Made by a program: the position numbers and the translations under genes. 64,000 nucleotides of DNA from IMG/VR virus record IMGVR_UViG_3300049043_000112, positions 172,017 through 236,016 of that record, one strand, 5' to 3'. This stretch comes from a virus. This document shows positions 38,698 through 57,256 of the stretch, piece after piece (positions within the stretch are counted from its first letter, which is position 1; the number at the start of each line of letters is the position of its first letter). The notes below the pieces were generated by a model. That model searched no databases and had not been told where the DNA came from. It saw only the letters and a program-made list of their open reading frames with translations.

Positions 38698-39736
38698 TGA
38701 TTTGCTCACTAATCCATGCATAAGTCTTGGCAATTCCTTCTTCAAGAGTTTGCGAATAATCCCAACCAAGTTCTCTACGAACTACATCATTATTAGAGTT
38801 ACGTCCACGAACTCCAAGAGGAGCATCAAGTTTATATTGTTTCTGTACTTCTTTACCTGCAACCTTAGCAGCGGTATCCACCAGTTGATTAATGGTTACC
38901 ATTTCTTCTGAACCAATATTTACTGGTCCGATAAACTCAGAATCCATCATACGACGGGTTGCTTCAATACACTCATCAATATAAAGGAATGAACGAGTCT
39001 GTTTTCCATCACCCCAAACTTCTATGGTCCCACCCTCTACGGGCAAATAGGCAACCTTACGGCAGATTGCTGCAGGGGCTTTCTCACGTCCCCCTTGCCA
39101 GGTTCCCTCAGGTCCAAAAATATTGTGATACCGAGCAACCCTAACAGGGATGCCATAATTACGGTGGTAAGCAAAGTATAGACGTTCAGAGAAGAGTTTT
39201 TCCCATCCATATTCAGAATCTGGGTTAGCAGGATAAGCGGATTCTTCACGACAATCAGGATTATCAGGATCTAGTTGATTATGCTCTGGATACATACAGG
39301 CAGAACCAGAATAGAAAATCTTGGTAGTGTTTTTACCATACTGTTCATTCATTTTATGCTGCATCTCAAGAACATTAAGATTGATGGTTGCAGAATTATG
39401 CATAATATCTGCATCATTTTCACCAGTAAAGACAAATCCTGCACCACCCATATCAGCGGCAAACTGATAGATTTCATCAAAGGTTTGAATATAACGATAG
39501 GGAACTGATTGATAGAAGTTACCTCTGTCACCCTTATATTCAAGGACACGACGAACGAAATTTACATCTCGAAGATCTCCAAGAATAAATTCATTTGCTT
39601 CGTGTTGAGAAAATTCTGGATACTTAAGGTCTACACCACGAACCCAATATCCTTCGGATCGTAATCTACGAACCATATGACTTCCAATGAAACCACCAGC
39701 ACCAAGTACAAGTGCTTTCTTAATATACTGACTCAT
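38681..39736 (-). CDS. GDP-mannose 3,5-epimerase
   Basis: 351 residues. The Rossmann motif GAGGFIGSHMVRRLRSEGYW is followed by hallmarks of GME: AADMGGAGFVFTGEN, YSGSACMYPEHNQ (catalytic loop), YGWEKLFSERLYFAYHRNYG (YxxxK) and RYHNIFGPEGTWQGGREKAP, then GDGKQTRSFLYIDECIEATR. It turns GDP-mannose into GDP-L-galactose (and GDP-L-gulose). The match in motif and length (about 350) is close. First gene of the sugar operon, with its own promoter. Confidence 0.92.
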   Translation of the reverse strand: MSQYIKKALVLGAGGFIGSHMVRRLRSEGYWVRGVDLKYPEFSQHEANEFILGDLRDVNFVRRVLEYKGDRGNFYQSVPYRYIQTFDEIYQFAADMGGAGFVFTGENDADIMHNSATINLNVLEMQHKMNEQYGKNTTKIFYSGSACMYPEHNQLDPDNPDCREESAYPANPDSEYGWEKLFSERLYFAYHRNYGIPVRVARYHNIFGPEGTWQGGREKAPAAICRKVAYLPVEGGTIEVWGDGKQTRSFLYIDECIEATRRMMDSEFIGPVNIGSEEMVTINQLVDTAAKVAGKEVQKQYKLDAPLGVRGRNSNNDVVRRELGWDYSQTLEEGIAKTYAWISEQINAKKV

Positions 39737-39760
39737 AAAATCATAAACTCTATAGTATGT

Positions 39761-39789
39761 ATTATACTAAAAAAGGTGGGTTTATGCAA
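39761..39789 (-). promoter_or_regulatory. sigma-70 promoter for the sugar operon
   Basis: Minus strand TTGCAT, 17-base spacer, TATAAT, about 25 bases before the epimerase ATG. The -35 sits in the loop of the upstream terminator hairpin (GGTGGGTTGCATAAACCCACC). Confidence 0.75.
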
Positions 39790-39798
39790 CCCACCTTC
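39774..39798 (-). terminator. terminator ahead of the sugar operon
   Basis: Minus strand GGTGGGTT-GCAT-AACCCACC then TTTTTT, directly after the stop of the 45-residue ORF. Confidence 0.85.
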
Positions 39799-39919
39799 CG
39801 TATTTTAGGTTCGCCATGCACGCCACCAATTCTTTAACTGGAAATTGGAAACCAGGCGGGAGAGAGTCCCATCCGCACCACTTGCTTTTAAGGGAAAGCA
39901 AGAAACCAAATAGGGTCAT
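39782..39919 (-). CDS. small hypothetical protein (45 residues)
   Basis: MTLFGFLLSLKSKWCGWDSL ... ends KYGRWVA. GGTGGAG precedes the ATG by seven bases, and the stop falls inside the terminator hairpin. Partly hydrophobic N-terminus. No family known; included because of the ribosome site and its fit between neighbours. Confidence 0.4.
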   Translation of the reverse strand: MTLFGFLLSLKSKWCGWDSLPPGFQFPVKELVACMANLKYGRWVA

Positions 39920-39942
39920 ATTTGACTCCACCAGTATAAGTT

Positions 39943-40179
39943 TTAAGTCATTCCAGGACTAATATAAAGTTGGATTAACTTTGATATTTCGGTAATACCA
40001 AAGAACGCACATAAAATTAGCACGTCCCAAAGTTTAAGTTTGATAGCAAAGGGAACTGTAAGTAGTCCACCAATAAGTTTTATTATCAAACCATATTTAA
40101 AATCTCCCCATAACATAGTTTGATAACCAATTATAAGGAGAAGGTTCCCAAGATATCTTAGGATACTTATTTTAGACAT
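39943..40179 (-). CDS. small membrane protein
   Basis: 78 residues (MSKISILRYLGNLLLIIGYQ...). Two hydrophobic helices: LGNLLLIIGYQTMLW and KLWDVLILCAFFGITEISKL, with GLIIKLIGGLLTVPFAIKLK between them. No recognised family. It follows the 83-residue gene and precedes the terminator. Confidence 0.6.
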   Translation of the reverse strand: MSKISILRYLGNLLLIIGYQTMLWGDFKYGLIIKLIGGLLTVPFAIKLKLWDVLILCAFFGITEISKLIQLYISPGMT

Positions 40180-40205
40180 AAGGGGTTTGCTCCCGACCAG
40201 TGCTG

Positions 40206-40457
40206 TTATAGACCATCCGTGTCTTCTTCATCATCTCTTACGTAACAAGGAACTCGATCTGGATCTAACCATCTGCAATACTGATGATCTTCCATTGCAG
40301 TAGAACATTGTAGCACATTATCAAAAAGATAAATGTCATTCCAGCGTTTAGTATAGTAATTCTGCTTTTGTAGGCGGTAATCAGGTTTACCGTTAATTTC
40401 AAGAATACCTGCTTCAACAAAGCGATATCCCTCACGTTCCAGAAGAACCTTTGTCAC
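40206..40457 (-). CDS. hypothetical protein, GTG start
   Basis: 83 residues (MTKVLLEREGYRFVEAGILE...). The GTG start overlaps the stop of the upstream gene in its restored frame (GTGA). The acidic C-terminus ends DDEEDTDGL. Soluble; not recognised. Confidence 0.6.
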   Translation of the reverse strand: MTKVLLEREGYRFVEAGILEINGKPDYRLQKQNYYTKRWNDIYLFDNVLQCSTAMEDHQYCRWLDPDRVPCYVRDDEEDTDGL

Positions 40458-44610: not shown

Positions 44611-46098
44611 TCAGAAACGGAAGGTAGTCTGAATCACACCACCATAGTTAGAAGAAGCATTCTTCAGACCTTGGTTGTTGGACACATAGAACACCGCAGG
44701 GGTGATGCTGATGTTATCGCTAACCTTGTAACGATAGAAGGTTTCCCACATAATAGCATCCTTACACAGAGTCTCTGCGTTACCAGGAGCACCGATGGCA
44801 AAACCAGCAGCATTACCCTTAGCAAAAACATCGCTCCACTGAACACCGGCCATCCAAGTCTGCGAATTGGTAGCAGCATTAGGAGTTGCGGGACCACTTA
44901 CATAGTTCCAACCGTAAGCAGCACTCACAGAAGGAATGATACCAGAGGTCTTAGGCTGCCAGTAAGCATTCAGAGCATAACCGTTAGAGGTTTGGTTAGC
45001 AGCAAGAGTACCAGCATTACCAGCAACACCGTTAAAGGTGCGAATACGGGTTCCTTCAGTACCATTACGATAACCGAAAGCAATGCCATACTGAGGAGCA
45101 CGATAACCAAATTGTGCCAGAGTATTCAGAGCACCAGAGGCATCAAATTCACCTTTGGTTGAATCGTTACCATTCTGAGCAACATAGTTGATACCAGCAA
45201 CGAATCCACCCTTACCTTTCTTGGTAGGTTGTGACCATTGAGCACCGAAACCAGCACCAGTTGCCTTGTTATAGACACCAGGAGCACCAGCAACTTGGAA
45301 GAAGTCAAGAATATCCGACTTATATGCAGAAGGAATCCAAGCGATTTCAGTGTTACGAACCTGAGCACCGGCGGTAAGCATTACACCCTTTGCAAGTCCA
45401 GGGAAGGTGTAATACAAACGATCCAGAGTCATCGTGTTCGCATAGGTTTCTGCCTTGTCCAGTTTGAACAGGGAAGAAGAGGAACCGAATGGTTGACTGG
45501 AGAAGTTACCAGAACGCAAACGGGTCTTGAGCAAATCCTTACCTGTGAAGGAAGTATCAAAACTCAGGCGGAGGTCATAGTTGAAAGCGGTATTTCCGAC
45601 ATTGCTGCTGTTAGCAAGACGAGCACCGTCTACACCACCAAGAACGAAAGTTGCTTCACCCTTAAGTTTGGTAGTCGTGGAGAACTGTTGTGCTTGAAGA
45701 GTACCAACTTGAGTTTCAAGTTTAGCAACACGACCTTTGATGACTGCAAGTTCCTTAGCAAACTCATTCGCAAGACGATTGAGTTCATCGGTAACTTCAG
45801 TCACGCGATCTAGACAAGCATTCAGAAGTGCAGCTGCTTCAAAACGGGTCATTGCCTGACCACCACGGAAGGTTCCGTTTTCATAACCAGCAACACAACC
45901 ATAACGCTCAACAAGATTGCTGAGTGCCTGATAAGCCCAGTCAGTGGGTTTTACATCAGACAGTTGGTTGATGCTCGTGACTTGTTCCGTGCTGGCATAT
46001 TGGTTGACTGCTGCCATATTAAGATCTGCGGCATTCGCAGCAACAGGAGCAACCATTCCCAGAGCAACAGGTGCAAGCATCAGTTGTTTGAGTTTCAT
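44611..46098 (-). CDS. cyanobacterial-type outer-membrane porin with SLH domain
   Basis: 495 residues from MKLKQLMLAPVALGMVAPVA (signal peptide to AANAADLN); the longer frame to 46128 is rejected because this Met begins the signal sequence. The SLH domain (NQLSDVKPTDWAYQALSNLV, RYGCVAGYENGTFRGGQAMT) and coiled linker (ELAVIKGRVAKLETQVGTLQ) anchor to peptidoglycan. A beta-barrel follows, ending QTTFRF with the usual terminal Phe. This is the build of Synechococcus SomA/SomB and OprB-like porins. In a phage it may raise outer-membrane uptake of phosphate or other ions, matching pstS next door. Confidence 0.92.
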   Translation of the reverse strand: MKLKQLMLAPVALGMVAPVAANAADLNMAAVNQYASTEQVTSINQLSDVKPTDWAYQALSNLVERYGCVAGYENGTFRGGQAMTRFEAAALLNACLDRVTEVTDELNRLANEFAKELAVIKGRVAKLETQVGTLQAQQFSTTTKLKGEATFVLGGVDGARLANSSNVGNTAFNYDLRLSFDTSFTGKDLLKTRLRSGNFSSQPFGSSSSLFKLDKAETYANTMTLDRLYYTFPGLAKGVMLTAGAQVRNTEIAWIPSAYKSDILDFFQVAGAPGVYNKATGAGFGAQWSQPTKKGKGGFVAGINYVAQNGNDSTKGEFDASGALNTLAQFGYRAPQYGIAFGYRNGTEGTRIRTFNGVAGNAGTLAANQTSNGYALNAYWQPKTSGIIPSVSAAYGWNYVSGPATPNAATNSQTWMAGVQWSDVFAKGNAAGFAIGAPGNAETLCKDAIMWETFYRYKVSDNISITPAVFYVSNNQGLKNASSNYGGVIQTTFRF

Positions 46099-46202
46099 AA
46101 AAAGTTTTTTGTATGTACTAAACGACAAATAAAGGGTTTTAAAGAAAACCGCAATATTTAGAGCGACTTAACCAATTCTTAAAAGAATATTAAGTCAACG
46201 GT

Positions 46203-49246: not shown

Positions 49247-49864
49247 TTAAACTTCTACCGTGATCAGTTTGGAAGCATACTCATGTGCATAAGATGTACG
49301 AGCACCATGATGCCCCCATCCAATCCAATCATACGCATAGACCATATAACGTCCGATTGATTTACCAGGAGTTTTCATCTTCTCCTCAATCTTTTGCCAC
49401 TGGACCTCGTTTGTAAGATAACGAAGTTGCGTATCAAGTGATGATGGTGAACCACCATACTTTCTAGCAAAATCACCCAATCCATAATAACGGTTGGCAG
49501 ATGTCCACTGAATCAGTCCATACCCACCCCAACAGGATGAATAAGACCTTCTACTACCACCTTCACAAATGTTAGGAACAAAAGTTGATTCCTGACGAAT
49601 ATTACCCATGATGGTAGCAAGGGCGTTTCTGTCTTTAATACCAAGACCCTGAAAATATGCCAGGGTAGCATTTTCATTTTCATTACACCCTTTACAAATT
49701 AACCTTGTCTCTTTAGGTTTTACGGGAGCAACCTCTCTGGTCGCTGTCTCTTCAACTACGGGCGGAGGAGGACCGTCCATCGTGTAGTTTACGAATGGCA
49801 GTGTTGCCGTCGATGTTGTAACCGATGCCAGAAGAGGCAGGGCTACTGTAAAGAAATTTTGCAT
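49247..49864 (-). CDS. secreted tail-lysozyme-domain protein
   Basis: 205 residues. An N-terminal signal-like segment (MQNFFTVALPLLASVTTSTA) and a Pro-rich linker lead into a phage tail lysozyme domain: NALATIMGNIRQESTFVPNI (catalytic Glu in QES) and GGYGLIQWTSANRYYGLGDF. Cleaves peptidoglycan; in tails it helps DNA entry, but the signal-like start suggests a lysis role here. It has its own promoter and a structured leader. Confidence 0.8.
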   Translation of the reverse strand: MQNFFTVALPLLASVTTSTATLPFVNYTMDGPPPPVVEETATREVAPVKPKETRLICKGCNENENATLAYFQGLGIKDRNALATIMGNIRQESTFVPNICEGGSRRSYSSCWGGYGLIQWTSANRYYGLGDFARKYGGSPSSLDTQLRYLTNEVQWQKIEEKMKTPGKSIGRYMVYAYDWIGWGHHGARTSYAHEYASKLITVEV

Positions 49865-50023: not shown

Positions 50024-50079
50024 GATGACAGTTGAAGAAGTGTCTCGCTAAATACAAATATAGTTCATCCACCAGAACA

Positions 50080-50541
50080 ATGAAAAGATTAGCATTTATC
50101 TTTTCGTTATTCCTTACTACCCCAACTTTTGCAGGTGAAATCACAAACAAAATCGTTGACTCCGTACAACTAGGTGTTCAGGGTGCAGCGGTACAATCAA
50201 CTAGAGTCGGGGGTCAATACTCCGTCTCAGGTACAAATATTAACGTTACAACTCTTGGAGGAGTTGGAACTGCTGGTTCTTATGATATCAATACGAATGG
50301 TGCAGCATTTAGTTTTTCTGAAACATCAGTCACTGCAGATACTGTTGTCACCAATCAGTCGGCAGCTTCTGGAACAATTGCTTCTCCCAACCTTTATAGC
50401 GACTCTACTACTCAATTAGGTGGTTCGGCAGGATCCCTTGCTGGTACACTTTCTCCAACTGGTGTTCCTACCATCACTGCTGGTGGTCCTGGAAGCACAG
50501 GAACCGCTCAAAGAACCGTTGAGTTAAGCGTATTCAAGTGA
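50080..50541 (+). CDS. secreted protein 1 of the plus-strand cassette
   Basis: 153 residues from MKRLAFIFSLFLTTPTFAGE (signal peptide, cleavage after TFA); the longer frame from 50032 adds residues before the signal peptide and is rejected. The mature part is Gly/Ser/Thr-rich with a GTNINVTTLGG motif shared with the next gene. No charge-rich or membrane regions. Exported, possibly a surface or fibre component. It belongs to the only plus-strand cluster in the window. Confidence 0.7.
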   Translation: MKRLAFIFSLFLTTPTFAGEITNKIVDSVQLGVQGAAVQSTRVGGQYSVSGTNINVTTLGGVGTAGSYDINTNGAAFSFSETSVTADTVVTNQSAASGTIASPNLYSDSTTQLGGSAGSLAGTLSPTGVPTITAGGPGSTGTAQRTVELSVFK

Positions 50542-50900
50542 AACACATAACTCCCGTTCTGCTAGCAGCAGCGGGACTTATATCTCCCTGCTATGCTGGC
50601 CCTGTCACTCCCAACTTCACAAGTGGCACAATTACTTCTGAAACTAAAACTAGAACTGAAGTGGTTGAAGTTATCAAACAAATAGAATATTCAACTGGGA
50701 CATCTTATACTGTCACTGGTACTAATATTAACATCCCTGCCAATCCAGGTCCAGGAGCGAACTATACAATTCAGACGCAAGGTGCTCCGTTCCAGTTTAG
50801 TGAGACCTATCTGACTCCTGGTATTGCGAAAGAAACATGGATAGATCGCAAAACGGTAGAAGAATCTACCACAAATTCATTATCGGTCTTTACACAATAA
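50538..50900 (+). CDS. secreted protein 2 of the plus-strand cassette
   Basis: 120 residues. GTG start overlapping the previous stop. Signal peptide MKHITPVLLAAAGLISPCYA, mature part with TVTGTNINIPANPGPGANYT and TQGAPFQFSETYL, which echo VSGTNINVTTLGG and NGAAFSFSET of gene 1, so the two are paralogues. Function unknown. Confidence 0.7.
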   Translation: MKHITPVLLAAAGLISPCYAGPVTPNFTSGTITSETKTRTEVVEVIKQIEYSTGTSYTVTGTNINIPANPGPGANYTIQTQGAPFQFSETYLTPGIAKETWIDRKTVEESTTNSLSVFTQ

Positions 50901-51430
50901 GTGCCGTACTTTGTGGATCCGCAGTCGCTCAAACTGCTCCGTCAAACACTAACATCGCTGGTCCTAGCGCCAGTGCTACTGGTAATGTTACAAACCAGGC
51001 TGTACAGGTATTACAAGGTCCTTTTGCCGTCAACACCTACGGTTCTGGAGTATCCTGCCAAGGTCCAACGCTGAACCTTCAGACCTTCGGATATAACAAC
51101 TTGAATTTAAATAAAGACCCAGAGAGTTATCAATCTGGTTCAATTAATGCAGGAGTCTCTGCAGGATTCTCTGTGCCTCTTGATGGTTCTTTTCAGGAAC
51201 TTTGTAAGGCAAGAGTTCGTACTGAAATCACAAGGCAACAGGCAGAGGCAGATAAGGCACGACTTGACTTTGAATTGGTAAGACTCTTGAAATGTGGTGA
51301 AGCACTGAAGAGTGGAATATCATTTCACCCAGAAAGTCCTTATGCAAAGATATGTGCTGATGTGGTTGTGAAGTATCCAAAAGTTCAGGATGTAGCAAAT
51401 GGAAATCAAACCAATTCAAATAAGAAGTGA
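50837..51430 (+). CDS. secreted protein 3 of the plus-strand cassette
   Basis: 197 residues. N-terminus MDRSQNGRRIYHKFIIGLYT then ISAVLCGSAVAQ, signal-like, cut after AVAQ. The first 64 bases overlap gene 2 out of frame. The mature part has AGVSAGFSVPLDGSFQELCK, an amphipathic helix (RVRTEITRQQAEADKARLDF) and a Cys-containing C-terminal half (CGEALKSGISFHPESPYAKI; four Cys). No family recognised. Confidence 0.7.
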   Translation: MDRSQNGRRIYHKFIIGLYTISAVLCGSAVAQTAPSNTNIAGPSASATGNVTNQAVQVLQGPFAVNTYGSGVSCQGPTLNLQTFGYNNLNLNKDPESYQSGSINAGVSAGFSVPLDGSFQELCKARVRTEITRQQAEADKARLDFELVRLLKCGEALKSGISFHPESPYAKICADVVVKYPKVQDVANGNQTNSNKK

Positions 51431-52070
51431 AGCACCGCCTATCATTCCAACGATAGAACCTCCTGTAACTCGTAGAGCAGAAAGAACTGCGGTTTATGGA
51501 TTGGAACTTCCGATTGTGAATATTCCTAACCCAACTCTGAACTATCCAGTCATTGATGTTCCAACTCAAGAAGAGTTTGATGCTGCAGTTAGAGCAGAAC
51601 AACAAAAGAAACAAGAAGAGAAAGAAGAAAAGACCAGAGGACTTCCAGATTCTCAACCAGTCTTACCACAAGTTCAGGTTCCTCAAGAGTCAGTTCAGGA
51701 CAAAATACTTAAGGAAACCAATCAACCAACAAACTTAGGAGTGCCCGTCATTGAAGTACCAATCGTCGGGGAGGTTCCAGTTCCTCCAAAAGAACAGGTT
51801 ATTCTTGCTGGGACTACTGCTACTGCCTCCGTTGCTGCGGCTCTTGTTGGCAAATCTCTGGTGGAATGGATGGTAGGTAAAATGAAACCTATCGTACAAC
51901 AGATATTTGTAAGGGGTAAGAAACTCTTGAGTAGAGATCTTACCCCATATGAACTTCAAATTTATTTTGCCTTTGAGAAAAGTCAGTCTCTTAAGAAAGT
52001 TAATAAGTTATTGAAGAAAGAACACAAAAACGAAAAGAAAGAACAATACAAGAAGTTTCACTCAAAGTGA
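51399..52070 (+). CDS. Pro-rich protein with one membrane helix, gene 4 of the plus-strand cassette
   Basis: 223 residues, no signal peptide. N-terminal half Pro/Ile-rich (PIIPTIEPPVTRRAERTAVY), a Gln/Glu/Lys-rich helix (RAEQQKKQEEKEEKTRG), then a hydrophobic segment (ILAGTTATASVAAALVGKSL) and a very basic C-terminus ending KKEQYKKFHSK. It looks like an inner-membrane anchor whose Pro-rich arm could span the periplasm, TonB-like in build though not by motif. It ends base-to-base against the nuclease gene (convergent). Confidence 0.7.
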   Translation: MEIKPIQIRSEAPPIIPTIEPPVTRRAERTAVYGLELPIVNIPNPTLNYPVIDVPTQEEFDAAVRAEQQKKQEEKEEKTRGLPDSQPVLPQVQVPQESVQDKILKETNQPTNLGVPVIEVPIVGEVPVPPKEQVILAGTTATASVAAALVGKSLVEWMVGKMKPIVQQIFVRGKKLLSRDLTPYELQIYFAFEKSQSLKKVNKLLKKEHKNEKKEQYKKFHSK

Positions 52071-53389: not shown

Positions 53390-53602
53390 TTAAAATGGAA
53401 GTTTGAAGTTATTAGTATTTAGTTTCGGAATGGGTAATTTTTCAATAGCTTTGTTGACTTGATTCTCTACAACTCTACCAACAAACTCTTCTGGATTATC
53501 TAGAATCTTTTGTGCTTTTTGGTAAGTTACATAAGCACCATAACAAAGCACAGCACTAATGCTCAGACTTGCTGCTGACAGAATGATCGCTAGGTTCTTC
53601 AT
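53390..53602 (-). CDS. small membrane protein (70 residues)
   Basis: MKNLAIILSAASLSISAVLC then YGAYVTYQKAQKIL: one signal-anchor helix, followed by a soluble amphipathic part (VGRVVENQVNKAIEKLPIPK). It overlaps the 51-residue gene upstream by 47 bases. No family known. Confidence 0.6.
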   Translation of the reverse strand: MKNLAIILSAASLSISAVLCYGAYVTYQKAQKILDNPEEFVGRVVENQVNKAIEKLPIPKLNTNNFKLPF

Positions 53603-53711
53603 CTTTCATTTCCTCAAATGCTAACTTCATTATGTAGTAAATTACATAAGCAGTAAATGCAAGACCACAACCAAGAATTATTATTACACCCCAGGGAAAA
53701 TCTTGTGGCAT
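53556..53711 (-). CDS. small membrane protein (51 residues)
   Basis: MPQDFPWGVIIILGCGLAFT, AYVIYYIMKLAFEEMKDEEP: one membrane helix and an acidic tail. Its ATG overlaps the stop of the metallopeptidase-like gene (TGATG). Holin-sized, but one helix and no other evidence for that role. Confidence 0.5.
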   Translation of the reverse strand: MPQDFPWGVIIILGCGLAFTAYVIYYIMKLAFEEMKDEEPSDHSVSSKSEH

Positions 53712-54457
53712 CAGTATTTACCTTCTACACAATAATCTGCTTTCTTATTTGGATTATATTCTTTATATCCTTCCTGTGGTTTCATCCATCCACAACCAAT
53801 CAACCATTCCATTGTTAATGGTGTTGGACGAATCTGTTCCCATAAGGGTCCCTTTGCACACATTTCAAGTTTTTGTGCTGTTACATTAGATTGTTCTTCT
53901 GCCCAGTTAGCATCTGCCTCCCATGGTACAGCACGACCCTGACCCATACTCTCATAAGAAAGTTTAGTCATCTTCATTACCCAGGCAGGTATTTCTGAAT
54001 CCTGGTGGACTTGTGCCATGAAAGCAGTTTTTACTCCACCACCCATACAATCTTGAACAACATGCCAACCTTCATGACGCATCGTTCCTAGAAACTCTCT
54101 GGGATCTTTGAGTAGTTCTTCATTCACAAAAAAGCGATTATATTCTGGTTTGTATAAACCTACCGTTCTTGGTGTAAAGTATCTTGAAGGTCCAACATAA
54201 ACTGGTACATTGAGTTTGTTGAGACCTGTTAAAATAGATTTAATTTCTTCTCGAAATGCTTCAAACTCTTTACCAGATATTAGTATAGACTCTGGTGTAA
54301 GTTGTTCTACTCCTTCTGTACATTCTCTGAGTATCATACAACCCATTGCTGCTAAACTATAAGCAGGTACAGTGGGTTGTTTTTTCTCTATAGAATTGGC
54401 AATTGCTGGAAATACTAGTGTTAATGATAAACTAAATGCTGTAAGAAGTTTTTTCAT
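53711..54457 (-). CDS. secreted protein with an HExxH-type zinc motif
   Basis: 248 residues. Signal peptide MKKLLTAFSLSLTLVFPAIA. The segment LGTMRHEGWHVVQDCMGGGV has HEGWH, the zinc-metallopeptidase motif HExxH, and a possible third ligand in WEADANWAEEQSNV (Glu, as in WEADA-type proteins). Eight Cys are scattered. It may cleave a periplasmic or cell-wall protein; the enzymatic role is inferred from the motif alone. It is followed by small membrane proteins. Confidence 0.65.
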   Translation of the reverse strand: MKKLLTAFSLSLTLVFPAIANSIEKKQPTVPAYSLAAMGCMILRECTEGVEQLTPESILISGKEFEAFREEIKSILTGLNKLNVPVYVGPSRYFTPRTVGLYKPEYNRFFVNEELLKDPREFLGTMRHEGWHVVQDCMGGGVKTAFMAQVHQDSEIPAWVMKMTKLSYESMGQGRAVPWEADANWAEEQSNVTAQKLEMCAKGPLWEQIRPTPLTMEWLIGCGWMKPQEGYKEYNPNKKADYCVEGKY

Positions 54458-54769: not shown

Positions 54770-55093
54770 TCAGGTGCGTGGTTGAACTTGACCTTCTAGA
54801 ACTTCAACTCTTGCCTCAAGAGAAGTTGCCTCTGCTTCAGGAGCAGGTGGTTCTGGTGGAGCCTCCACAACGACCTCTTCTCTCTTAGGTTCTTCCTTAT
54901 GCTCCTCGTCACCACCTTTTTTCATGGTATTAATCCCAAAAGTAGCAGCAGAGGCAGTAAAAACAGTAGCGATAAAGGTTGGGTCCATCTTAGCAAGCAT
55001 ACCAGCATATGATGCAGTCAGAAGAGCGGCAGACCAACTCAGAATAGCAATACGAATCACTTGTCCCATAGCTTTTTCCTTAGTGTTTCCCAT
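54770..55093 (-). CDS. membrane protein with acidic Pro-rich tail
   Basis: 107 residues. Two hydrophobic helices (VIRIAILSWSAALLTASYAG; PTFIATVFTASAATFGI), then a charged, Pro/Glu-rich tail (EEVVVEAPPEPPAPEAEATS) and a short coiled coil. The two-helix plus charged-tail layout is compatible with a class II holin, and lysis genes are within 4 kb, but this is only inference. Confidence 0.6.
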   Translation of the reverse strand: MGNTKEKAMGQVIRIAILSWSAALLTASYAGMLAKMDPTFIATVFTASAATFGINTMKKGGDEEHKEEPKREEVVVEAPPEPPAPEAEATSLEARVEVLEGQVQPRT

Positions 55094-55120: not shown

Positions 55121-55636
55121 TTAGTTGAAGATATATTTTATTCCCATTCCAAAACGACCATTTGAAAAATCATCAGCAGCAGTAATATACTCACCAAATA
55201 CCTTTACATTTTTACCACCAGTCTCTCCACCCAATATAACAATTGGATTGTTCATTTTAGTTCTTGTAGAATCTAAATCTGGGTGATGCAAAGAAAGACC
55301 GGCATATAAATTACTTGTTTTATCTACGGGAAAAAGAAACTTAACTCCAGTGTGATTAAATCCAAGTCCATCATCTTTCTCAGGAATACTACTTTGATGT
55401 TCCACAAATAATCGCACATTTTTAGTCACATCATATTGGACACCAAAAACTCCAATAGGTTCTTTCAGATTAATTTGTTTTTTGGTCGTCTTTCTATTTT
55501 CACTTGCATTCCACATTGGATTATTAAAATTTGGATTTATACTAAATCCAACATATGACTGCAAAGGAGTTGTTATTCCTATTAAAGGAGTTATAAGAGA
55601 AACTGCAATCGCTGCTGGAGTAATGCCTATTTCCAC
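55121..55636 (-). CDS. probable outer-membrane beta-barrel-like protein, GTG start
   Basis: 171 residues starting MEIGITPAAIAVSLITPLIG. The later part alternates hydrophobic and polar residues (VGVQYDVTKNVRLFVEHQSS-like; NLYAGLSLHHPDL; FGMGIKYIFN), ending in aromatic-rich strands, as in small eight-stranded barrels. The GTG start lies just after the stop of the 538-residue protein. No family known. Confidence 0.55.
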   Translation of the reverse strand: MEIGITPAAIAVSLITPLIGITTPLQSYVGFSINPNFNNPMWNASENRKTTKKQINLKEPIGVFGVQYDVTKNVRLFVEHQSSIPEKDDGLGFNHTGVKFLFPVDKTSNLYAGLSLHHPDLDSTRTKMNNPIVILGGETGGKNVKVFGEYITAADDFSNGRFGMGIKYIFN

Positions 55637-55639
55637 TAG

Positions 55640-57256
55640 TTAGAATCTAAATTTTACTTTACCCGCAATAGAATTGTTGGTAACGCCACTATTTACACCG
55701 TGGGATGCTTCTACGATTAACATTTCTTTATAATCTAACGAACCCCCCACAGAATAAGAACCGTCAGTCCCATAAGAACCATCAACACTGATACCAAAGA
55801 TATCATGTTTCTTGCCTCCAAATCTAGTTTCTAACTTAAGTCCTGCTTCACCAACATGAGATGTTTTACTATATGCATCAACTGTTCTTATTGATTCCGA
55901 TGAACCGGTTTCGGTATATGCGTTTCTAGTTACGTTAGAAACAGTATAACCTAAAAATGGTTTAAACCATCCAGAGTTGTTGGCATATAATCTGTTGGAA
56001 ATCCACCACTGTTGCCCCTCAGTTTTACCCCAATTACCAAACTGATACTCAAGTGTTCTAGCATAATCATAATTATCTTGCGATGCACCAGCATTAGTTA
56101 CAAGTGCTAAATCTCTGCCATGGAAACTATTGAATACACCAACATGCTGTCTCTTTAGATGTGAAATACTATCTACACCTTTCATTTCAGTATAAAGATC
56201 ATTATAATGTGCTCCAGCGGTCCATCCTTTTGTCAAATCATATTCAAATCCACCGCCAAGTATTGTTGTAGAAGATTCATATCCATCAGCATTATAAGAA
56301 TGAGCAAATCTGGTATTTTCAAATACTCTAAATCTTTTCTTGTGATTAGTGATTGGTTCGTGATTAAGAAGACCATTAATACCATCACTAATACTATCAA
56401 AAACTTCTAGTTGGTCAATACGACCAGAATAATTTGCATATTCGTGTGAGACTGCATCTTGATTTGCAGAACTTGTAGTAATGACTGGTGTTCCGTTAGT
56501 TACAACAGTTGAGTTATCACTATAAGTATCAGTTGTGACTGGTGTAGTTGTGGTGGTTGTTACGGTTGTGGCAGTAACAGTTGTGGCAGAATCAAAGTTC
56601 AGAGTCTGCTTTCCACCACTCTCAGAAGTTGTATGAGTAACAACAGTATTTGAGGTGTAAGTAGGATTTGCGACACTTACACTTACATTGTTTACAGTGC
56701 TTGAACTTACCAGAGTTGGTGGTGGTGGAGTTCCGCCAGTTTCGTAAATATCAAGAATACCATTCTGGTTAGCATCACCAGAGAGTGCTGCAGCAGAAAG
56801 ACTCACTGTGCTGGAAAGGATAACACTATCCATAGGCATCCAGTTTACAGTTGGAGAACCAGCAGCATTATAGGTAAACTGATAATCACCAGCGGCAAGT
56901 CCAGTAAAGGTTACACCCTGCCAAGTGGATGATACCTGACTATTACTTCCATAAGGAACTAGTGTTGAACCATTAGAAGTAAAATAGTTTGTTCCATCAA
57001 TCAATCCATCAGGTTTAGTTGCTGAAAGTAAAGTCCAGTTGACAGTTGTTGCTGAAAAGTTAGTTCCGTTGATACCTTGTAGAGTTAAAGTACCTTCATT
57101 AAACGTAGTTCCAGGGTGCCAGTTACCATACCAGAATGTAACTGATCCACCCCCGCCACCAACATATCCAATAGAGTTGGTGTGAGATAATGCTGCTGTT
57201 GGCACTCCAAGAAGAAGCGCAGACGCTGCAGCCAGCGCCTTTTGCGTGTTAGACAT
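55640..57256 (-). CDS. autotransporter-like outer-membrane beta-barrel protein
   Basis: 538 residues. Signal peptide MSNTQKALAAASALLLGVPT then AALSHTN. Passenger part about residues 28-290, Gly/Ser/Thr-rich with an EF-like DANQNGILDIYETGG and a Thr/Val-rich low-complexity run. The C-terminal ~250 residues have alternating strands (FRVFENTRFAHSYNADGYES; GGFEYDLTKGWTAGAHYNDL) and end VKFRF, the C-terminal Phe used by the BAM machinery. Likely placed in the host outer membrane, where it could block superinfection or change the surface. A 14-base inverted repeat sits just before the ATG. Confidence 0.75.
   Translation of the reverse strand: MSNTQKALAAASALLLGVPTAALSHTNSIGYVGGGGGSVTFWYGNWHPGTTFNEGTLTLQGINGTNFSATTVNWTLLSATKPDGLIDGTNYFTSNGSTLVPYGSNSQVSSTWQGVTFTGLAAGDYQFTYNAAGSPTVNWMPMDSVILSSTVSLSAAALSGDANQNGILDIYETGGTPPPPTLVSSSTVNNVSVSVANPTYTSNTVVTHTTSESGGKQTLNFDSATTVTATTVTTTTTTPVTTDTYSDNSTVVTNGTPVITTSSANQDAVSHEYANYSGRIDQLEVFDSISDGINGLLNHEPITNHKKRFRVFENTRFAHSYNADGYESSTTILGGGFEYDLTKGWTAGAHYNDLYTEMKGVDSISHLKRQHVGVFNSFHGRDLALVTNAGASQDNYDYARTLEYQFGNWGKTEGQQWWISNRLYANNSGWFKPFLGYTVSNVTRNAYTETGSSESIRTVDAYSKTSHVGEAGLKLETRFGGKKHDIFGISVDGSYGTDGSYSVGGSLDYKEMLIVEASHGVNSGVTNNSIAGKVKFRF

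Follow-up and report, generated by a model that had tools for sequence, protein, structure and literature searches.

What is the function of four overlapping genes that run together on the plus strand of a cyanophage genome? The stretch of DNA analysed here (the window, 64,000 nucleotides long) is contained in a 236-kb IMG/VR virus record, and the virus is a T4-like cyanophage, as judged by its many tRNAs, its two photosynthetic reaction-centre genes (PF00124) and its nearest relatives. The cassette comprises g1 (50080..50541, 153 aa), g2 (50538..50900, 120 aa), g3 (50837..51430, 197 aa) and g4 (51399..52070), all of which translate cleanly, with successive overlaps of 4, 64 and 32 bases, just as a preliminary description had it. 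That description also called the cassette the only set on the plus strand, which is fair, since eight other plus-strand ORFs of 140–214 aa in the window match no PHROG. Homologues of all four genes are numerous and keep this order, which argues against a chance arrangement, and their families are listed in PHROGs and Pfam as unknowns (phrog_564 for g1, phrog_650 and DUF6322 for g2, phrog_848/1755 for g3 and phrog_570/9426 for g4). On the minus strand, a secreted-looking PF18013 lysozyme (49247..49864), a candidate endolysin, adjoins the cassette in divergent orientation, and a DUF6450 gene (54770..55093) encodes a small protein with two hydrophobic segments and a putatively holin-like topology. 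Of 124 distinct loci, just 27 have the PF18013 lysozyme no more than 2.5 kb upstream, and the idea that an endolysin always adjoins the cassette was dropped.

The suggestion that this is an undescribed system had to be abandoned. In 2010, Sullivan et al. reported an unnamed 'cluster of five hypothetical proteins', T4-GC 218/219/234/235/237, in marine T4-like cyanophages (PMC3037559), and g1, g3 and the g4 family are part of it. The P-SSM2 and S-SM1 records label g1, g2 and g3 as T4-GC 237, 236 and 235, and the DUF6450 gene is the T4-GC 218 homologue of the window (E 8e-33). An iterative profile search linked g4 to T4-GC 234 in 353 loci; independently built profiles of the two align at 96% in hhalign (E 5e-9), and g4 aligns with its podovirus forms at 97% (E 1.5e-10). 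As in the reported cluster, g1-g2-g3 keep their order on the strand opposite their neighbours: the homologues of 235 and 237 lie close together on one strand, that of 234 sits beside 235 and that of 218 is nearby. The orientation of g4 differs, however, as it runs with g1–g3 and not against them. T4-GC 219 and the plasmid-stability gene, which occur in 62 and 93 of 367 loci, respectively, gave no window match at E 1e-4, and the window cassette was therefore filed as a variant of the cluster. An ORF at 53390-53602 looked by eye like the plasmid-stability protein, but it gave no match and was dropped. The cassette was thus known before, but unnamed and unexplained. New here are its presence also in T7-like cyanophages and S-TIM5, its placement in the former in the tail fibre/TerS slot beside DUF6450, the late-promoter motif near g1, the flip of the g4 strand in both phage types and the copies in Synechococcaceae chromosomes.

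By tblastn against 50,697 phage records, g1 was found in 205 records, g2 in 389 and g3 in 460, all of them cyanophages or unnamed marine or uncultured viruses; g4 is too divergent for this search (4 records). DUF6450 is present in 441 records, again only of such viruses. A search for the gene set in other phages and in hosts showed that its members stay with one another in three lineages of phages, the T4-like Kyanoviridae, the T7-like Autographiviridae and S-TIM5, rather than occurring separately beside unrelated genes. Arrangements were counted in 367 loci, several of which overlap on the same contig, so that the counts are not independent. The common orders are g1-g2-g3-g4 all forward, as in the window and DSL-LC02 (g3 and g4 on one strand in 192 of 367 loci), and g1-g2-g3 forward with g4 facing them, as in P-SSM2, S-SM1, S-SM2 and DSL-LC03 (157 of 367). 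Across these loci g4 mostly adjoins g3, and T4-GC 218 often lies slightly further along. In T4-like phages the DUF6450 gene is kilobases from the cassette on the opposite strand. S-TIM5 represents a myovirus lineage of its own; it carries g1, g2 and g3, with g4 convergent to them and the DUF6450 gene far away. The T7-like cyanophages examined carry g4, DUF6450 (T4-GC 218), g2 and g3, without g1; in S-RIP1, P-SSP7 and S-TIP37 the genes run from the tail fibre through g4, DUF6450, g2 and g3 to TerS, and in P-SCSP1u DUF6450-g2-g3 are accompanied by a convergent g4 (genes 30-33). The g4 strand thus flips in both myoviruses and podoviruses, while the gene stays close to g3. Two podovirus-like contigs hold the same set before the large terminase. 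Genome matches G071 and G283 proved to be podovirus-like contigs rather than chromosomes.

Among the complete phages checked, co-occurrence of g2 and g4 is all-or-none, and g3 follows where tested. All three genes are present in S-TIM5, P-SSP7 and S-TIP37; g2 and g4 are absent from Syn5, P60, S-SZBM1 and S-CREM2, and g3 is absent by profile from S-CREM2, S-SZBM1 and Syn5. S-PM2 has no g4 and, for g2, only a weak partial profile match inside a 3,048-residue reading frame; its lack of g3 follows the earlier report (PMC3037559). A weak DUF6450 match in S-CREM2 comes without the other cassette genes. In the cassette-free Syn5, the tail-fibre/terminase interval encodes gp47 (L368, 11393-11653), a protein with a TM segment and a coiled-coil-like part. 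Some contigs assigned to genomes of Bacteroidetes, Euryarchaeota and Gammaproteobacteria also hold cyanophage-type cassettes (L379, from Nonlabens xiamenensis, 188 kb; L374-L378; L381). As their gene order is phage-type, these and similar MAG matches were treated as binned phage contigs, and they are probably wrongly binned or contaminating.

The cassette appears, from its upstream sequence, to be switched on late. A CTAAATA motif, read in the sequence at 50048..50054 (+), ends 25 bases before the g1 start, and another, at 55124 (-), lies about 30 bases upstream of the DUF6450 gene; the late promoter published for cyanophages is NATAAATA (PMC2984593). Around the g1 start, the form NTAAATA was found in 142 of 170 distinct loci (84%), as against 10.7% for random stretches, and its positions peak sharply some 40 bases upstream of where the ORF begins.

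By eye and by hydropathy, the N-termini of g1, g2 and g3 consist of a hydrophobic stretch followed by an A-x-A-type end (TFA|GE, CYA|GP and AVA|QT, respectively), consistent with the three signal peptides proposed earlier. Together with the constant partners, these N-termini support the idea of an exported, linked and probably envelope-directed set. The proposed paralogy of g1 and g2 was borne out as well: an iterative HMM search seeded with one of the two brings in its counterpart, whichever is taken as the seed, and hhalign aligns their separately built profiles at 95% (E 3e-8), making them one family of Thr/Ser/Asn-rich beta proteins. The single-chain model of g2 (mean pLDDT 83) has a long hairpin with strands 29-51 and 96-119. 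A Foldseek search of this model against the PDB gave nothing at E < 0.001 (best E 1.6e-3, TM-score 0.1-0.3). Its top list, below significance, consists mostly of long-hairpin subunits of tubes and pores, namely phage lower collar proteins, anthrax protective antigen, aerolysin and lysenin; the weak likeness is confined to the hairpin, with no domain in common. Since its strands are polar, the modelled g2 hairpin does not look membrane-spanning, and it would be as compatible with a fibre as with a tube.

The model of g3 is poor (pLDDT 59) and comprises a hairpin and a 42-residue helix, for which Foldseek found nothing better than E 1; TolC-type channels appeared among this noise and were discarded as evidence. 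The second strand alternates hydrophobic and polar residues across the alignment, with none of 5,000 permutations as strong, and would in this amphipathic pattern resemble outer-membrane strands. Four cysteines (C74, C123, C153 and C173 in window numbering) are invariant, which would fit an oxidising compartment. Marine forms of g3 have a middle insert that the window g3 lacks. For g4, the Pro-rich arm (P 10%) and the basic C-tail (net +12) described earlier stand, whereas the membrane helix is only weak in the window copy (maximal 19-residue Kyte-Doolittle mean 1.49, residues 133-151) and somewhat stronger in marine homologues (1.6-1.7). The arm would lie outside the cytoplasm, since the marine forms counted have four cysteines each. 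A sequence search of solved structures with three profiles gave no match at E up to 1.

Copies of the cassette are also present in cellular genomes. Three Synechococcaceae MAGs carry g1-g2-g3, and in two of them g4 faces g3 before the contig end. The flanks are chromosomal: Pfam identifies genes for NAD kinase, CYTH and LuxR-type proteins, and reading frames for ndhI, ndhA, citrate synthase and trpB were recognised by eye. Within the genus, 3 of 42 genomes have the cassette, and one more gives a weak match. In the g3 tree, the host copies sit on a long branch inside the freshwater phage branch (support 95/94), and this nesting makes transfer from phage to host likelier than the reverse. A distant g3-like exported protein is encoded in a Synechococcaceae genome (L403, 6360-7064), with FhaC-type and CHASE2-looking frames, by eye, upstream; it may be a cellular relative of the g3 family.

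Taken together, these observations lead us to favour, tentatively and at somewhat less than an even chance, a late host-envelope module, putatively for lysis or outer-membrane breaching. A lysis role is preferred because the cassette has a late promoter motif, appears to be exported, does not depend on the type of virion and does not figure in the P-SCSP1u virion model, and because of its place in the holin slot and its partnership with DUF6450. Also in favour of this reading are the restriction of the set to cyanophage or unnamed marine and uncultured records, the all-or-none pattern of g2 and g4, the closeness of g4 to g3 despite its strand flips, the TM and coiled-coil-like protein in the corresponding interval of Syn5, and the weak tube- and pore-subunit neighbours of the g2 model. 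In phage T7, the interval between genes 17 and 19 holds lysis genes, with the holin (17.5) located between the tail fibre and the terminase small subunit and 18.5/18.7 encoding Rz/Rz1. The cassette and DUF6450 lie in the tail fibre/terminase small subunit interval of T7-like cyanophages and so, by analogy, may occupy a slot equivalent to that of the T7 holin. In such a module, g1–g3 would leave the cytoplasm by the Sec route and reach the periplasm or outer membrane. There g1 and g2 could assemble through their long polar beta-hairpins, and g3 would combine a strand of outer-membrane type with a long helix in the periplasm. The inner membrane would hold g4, whose Pro-rich arm would face the exported proteins. 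DUF6450, which has two hydrophobic segments in P-SSP7_043 and no match to a holin family, could serve as holin or membrane trigger.

Several findings count against a lysis module. DUF6450 is far from the cassette in T4-like phages and S-TIM5 and matches weakly in S-CREM2 without the other genes, the g2 strands are polar and not membrane-like, the g3 model is poor, and a set kept in three cyanobacterial chromosomes is odd for lysis genes. The cassette gave no sequence match and no significant fold match to a holin, spanin or lysis protein. A literature search on cyanophage lysis genes and DUF6322 yielded nothing useful.

The main rival, which we consider unlikely, is late surface remodelling or superinfection exclusion, in which the outer membrane of the host would be coated or changed by the exported proteins; the infected cell would then no longer adsorb phage, or its debris would not titrate the progeny. 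Export without any enzyme domain in the exported proteins would suit such a role, as would their absence from the P-SCSP1u virion model, and three host chromosomes keep the set, with copies that group among freshwater phage sequences, as might be expected if an exclusion gene had been captured. Other envelope proteins encoded by the window phage fit it too: an outer-membrane porin with SLH and OprB domains (44611-46128, -) and an autotransporter beta-domain protein (55640-57256, -). Yet exclusion is at odds with the late promoter motif, with the place in the holin slot and the link to DUF6450 seen in T7-like phages, and with the lack of any match to PADLOC models. The porin shares 76% identity with a 'porin' that Synechococcus phage S-SRM01 encodes, and it is seldom present in other phages. 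The autotransporter gene, near that of DUF6450, has relatives among phage records only in DSL-LC02 and DSL-LC03. A putative exported metallopeptidase (53711-54457, -; phrog_591), with an HEGWH motif by eye, has related genes in 118 fetched loci.

The late promoter motif would equally suit minor virion components whose N-termini merely resemble signal peptides, a reading that we regard as improbable. The set is common to unrelated virion architectures, and the S-TIM5 record, which does name virion proteins among its other genes, labels the cassette hypothetical. In the virion model published for P-SCSP1u, the proteins are gp16, 19, 22, 23 and 28; the products of genes 30-33 are not among them, so that in this one model the cassette proteins do not appear as the ordinary virion parts that the preliminary description had considered. 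The virion tables of S-CREM2 and S-SZBM1 were set aside, as both phages lack the cassette genes. That description itself preferred an envelope-spanning assembly or a surface fibre, of which the envelope direction stands and the fibre is without direct support. That g1 and g2 build a fibre or other assembly, at the surface or in the periplasm, and are anchored via g3 and g4 is distinctly improbable: two paralogous beta proteins, exported by hydropathy and one of them modelled as a long hairpin, would be suitable building blocks, but the cassette has no match to a fibre family and no pilus or usher machinery, and the lack of g1 in the T7-like phages examined means that two paralogues are not essential.

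Returning to the late envelope module, a more specific form of it, possible though on balance doubtful, is a distinct, lipoprotein-free outer-membrane breaching system of most marine cyanophages. Exported beta-hairpin proteins would oligomerise at the outer membrane, and the g4 arm would couple them to DUF6450 as a trigger in the inner membrane. The module would also have passed among phages of the T4-like, T7-like and S-TIM5-like kinds and entered host chromosomes. Lysis of Synechococcus and Prochlorococcus by cyanophages, major killers in the ocean, is barely described, and a cyanophage review makes no mention of holin or endolysin (PMC2984593). For an envelope function, a late exported set that cyanophages share despite their lack of relationship is a prime candidate. 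The genetically tractable S-TIP37, for which a recombination-enrichment-PCR method has been published (PMC8776855), carries the cassette at about 39025-40288 of NC_048026, which makes the question directly testable.

Compared with known systems, the cassette resembles the lysis genes of T7 in its interval position in T7-like cyanophages and in the succession of a small TM protein and overlapping exported proteins; it differs in that no sequence kinship was found, no lipobox protein is included and its members exceed a holin and spanin pair. A two-component spanin (Rz/Rz1) needs an outer-membrane lipoprotein with a lipobox and an inner-membrane coiled-coil partner, whereas a reading of the translations found no lipobox in g1–g4. 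With its long arm and C-terminal membrane segment, g4 recalls a U-spanin of the phage T1 gp11 type, but it has neither an N-terminal lipobox nor a signal peptide, and its weak TM segment lies towards the C-terminus only. For want of a lipobox, the cassette is not a spanin by membership, though it may still work like one: at lysis, its members would open up or weaken the outer membrane and so fill the role of spanins, although they are not spanins themselves.
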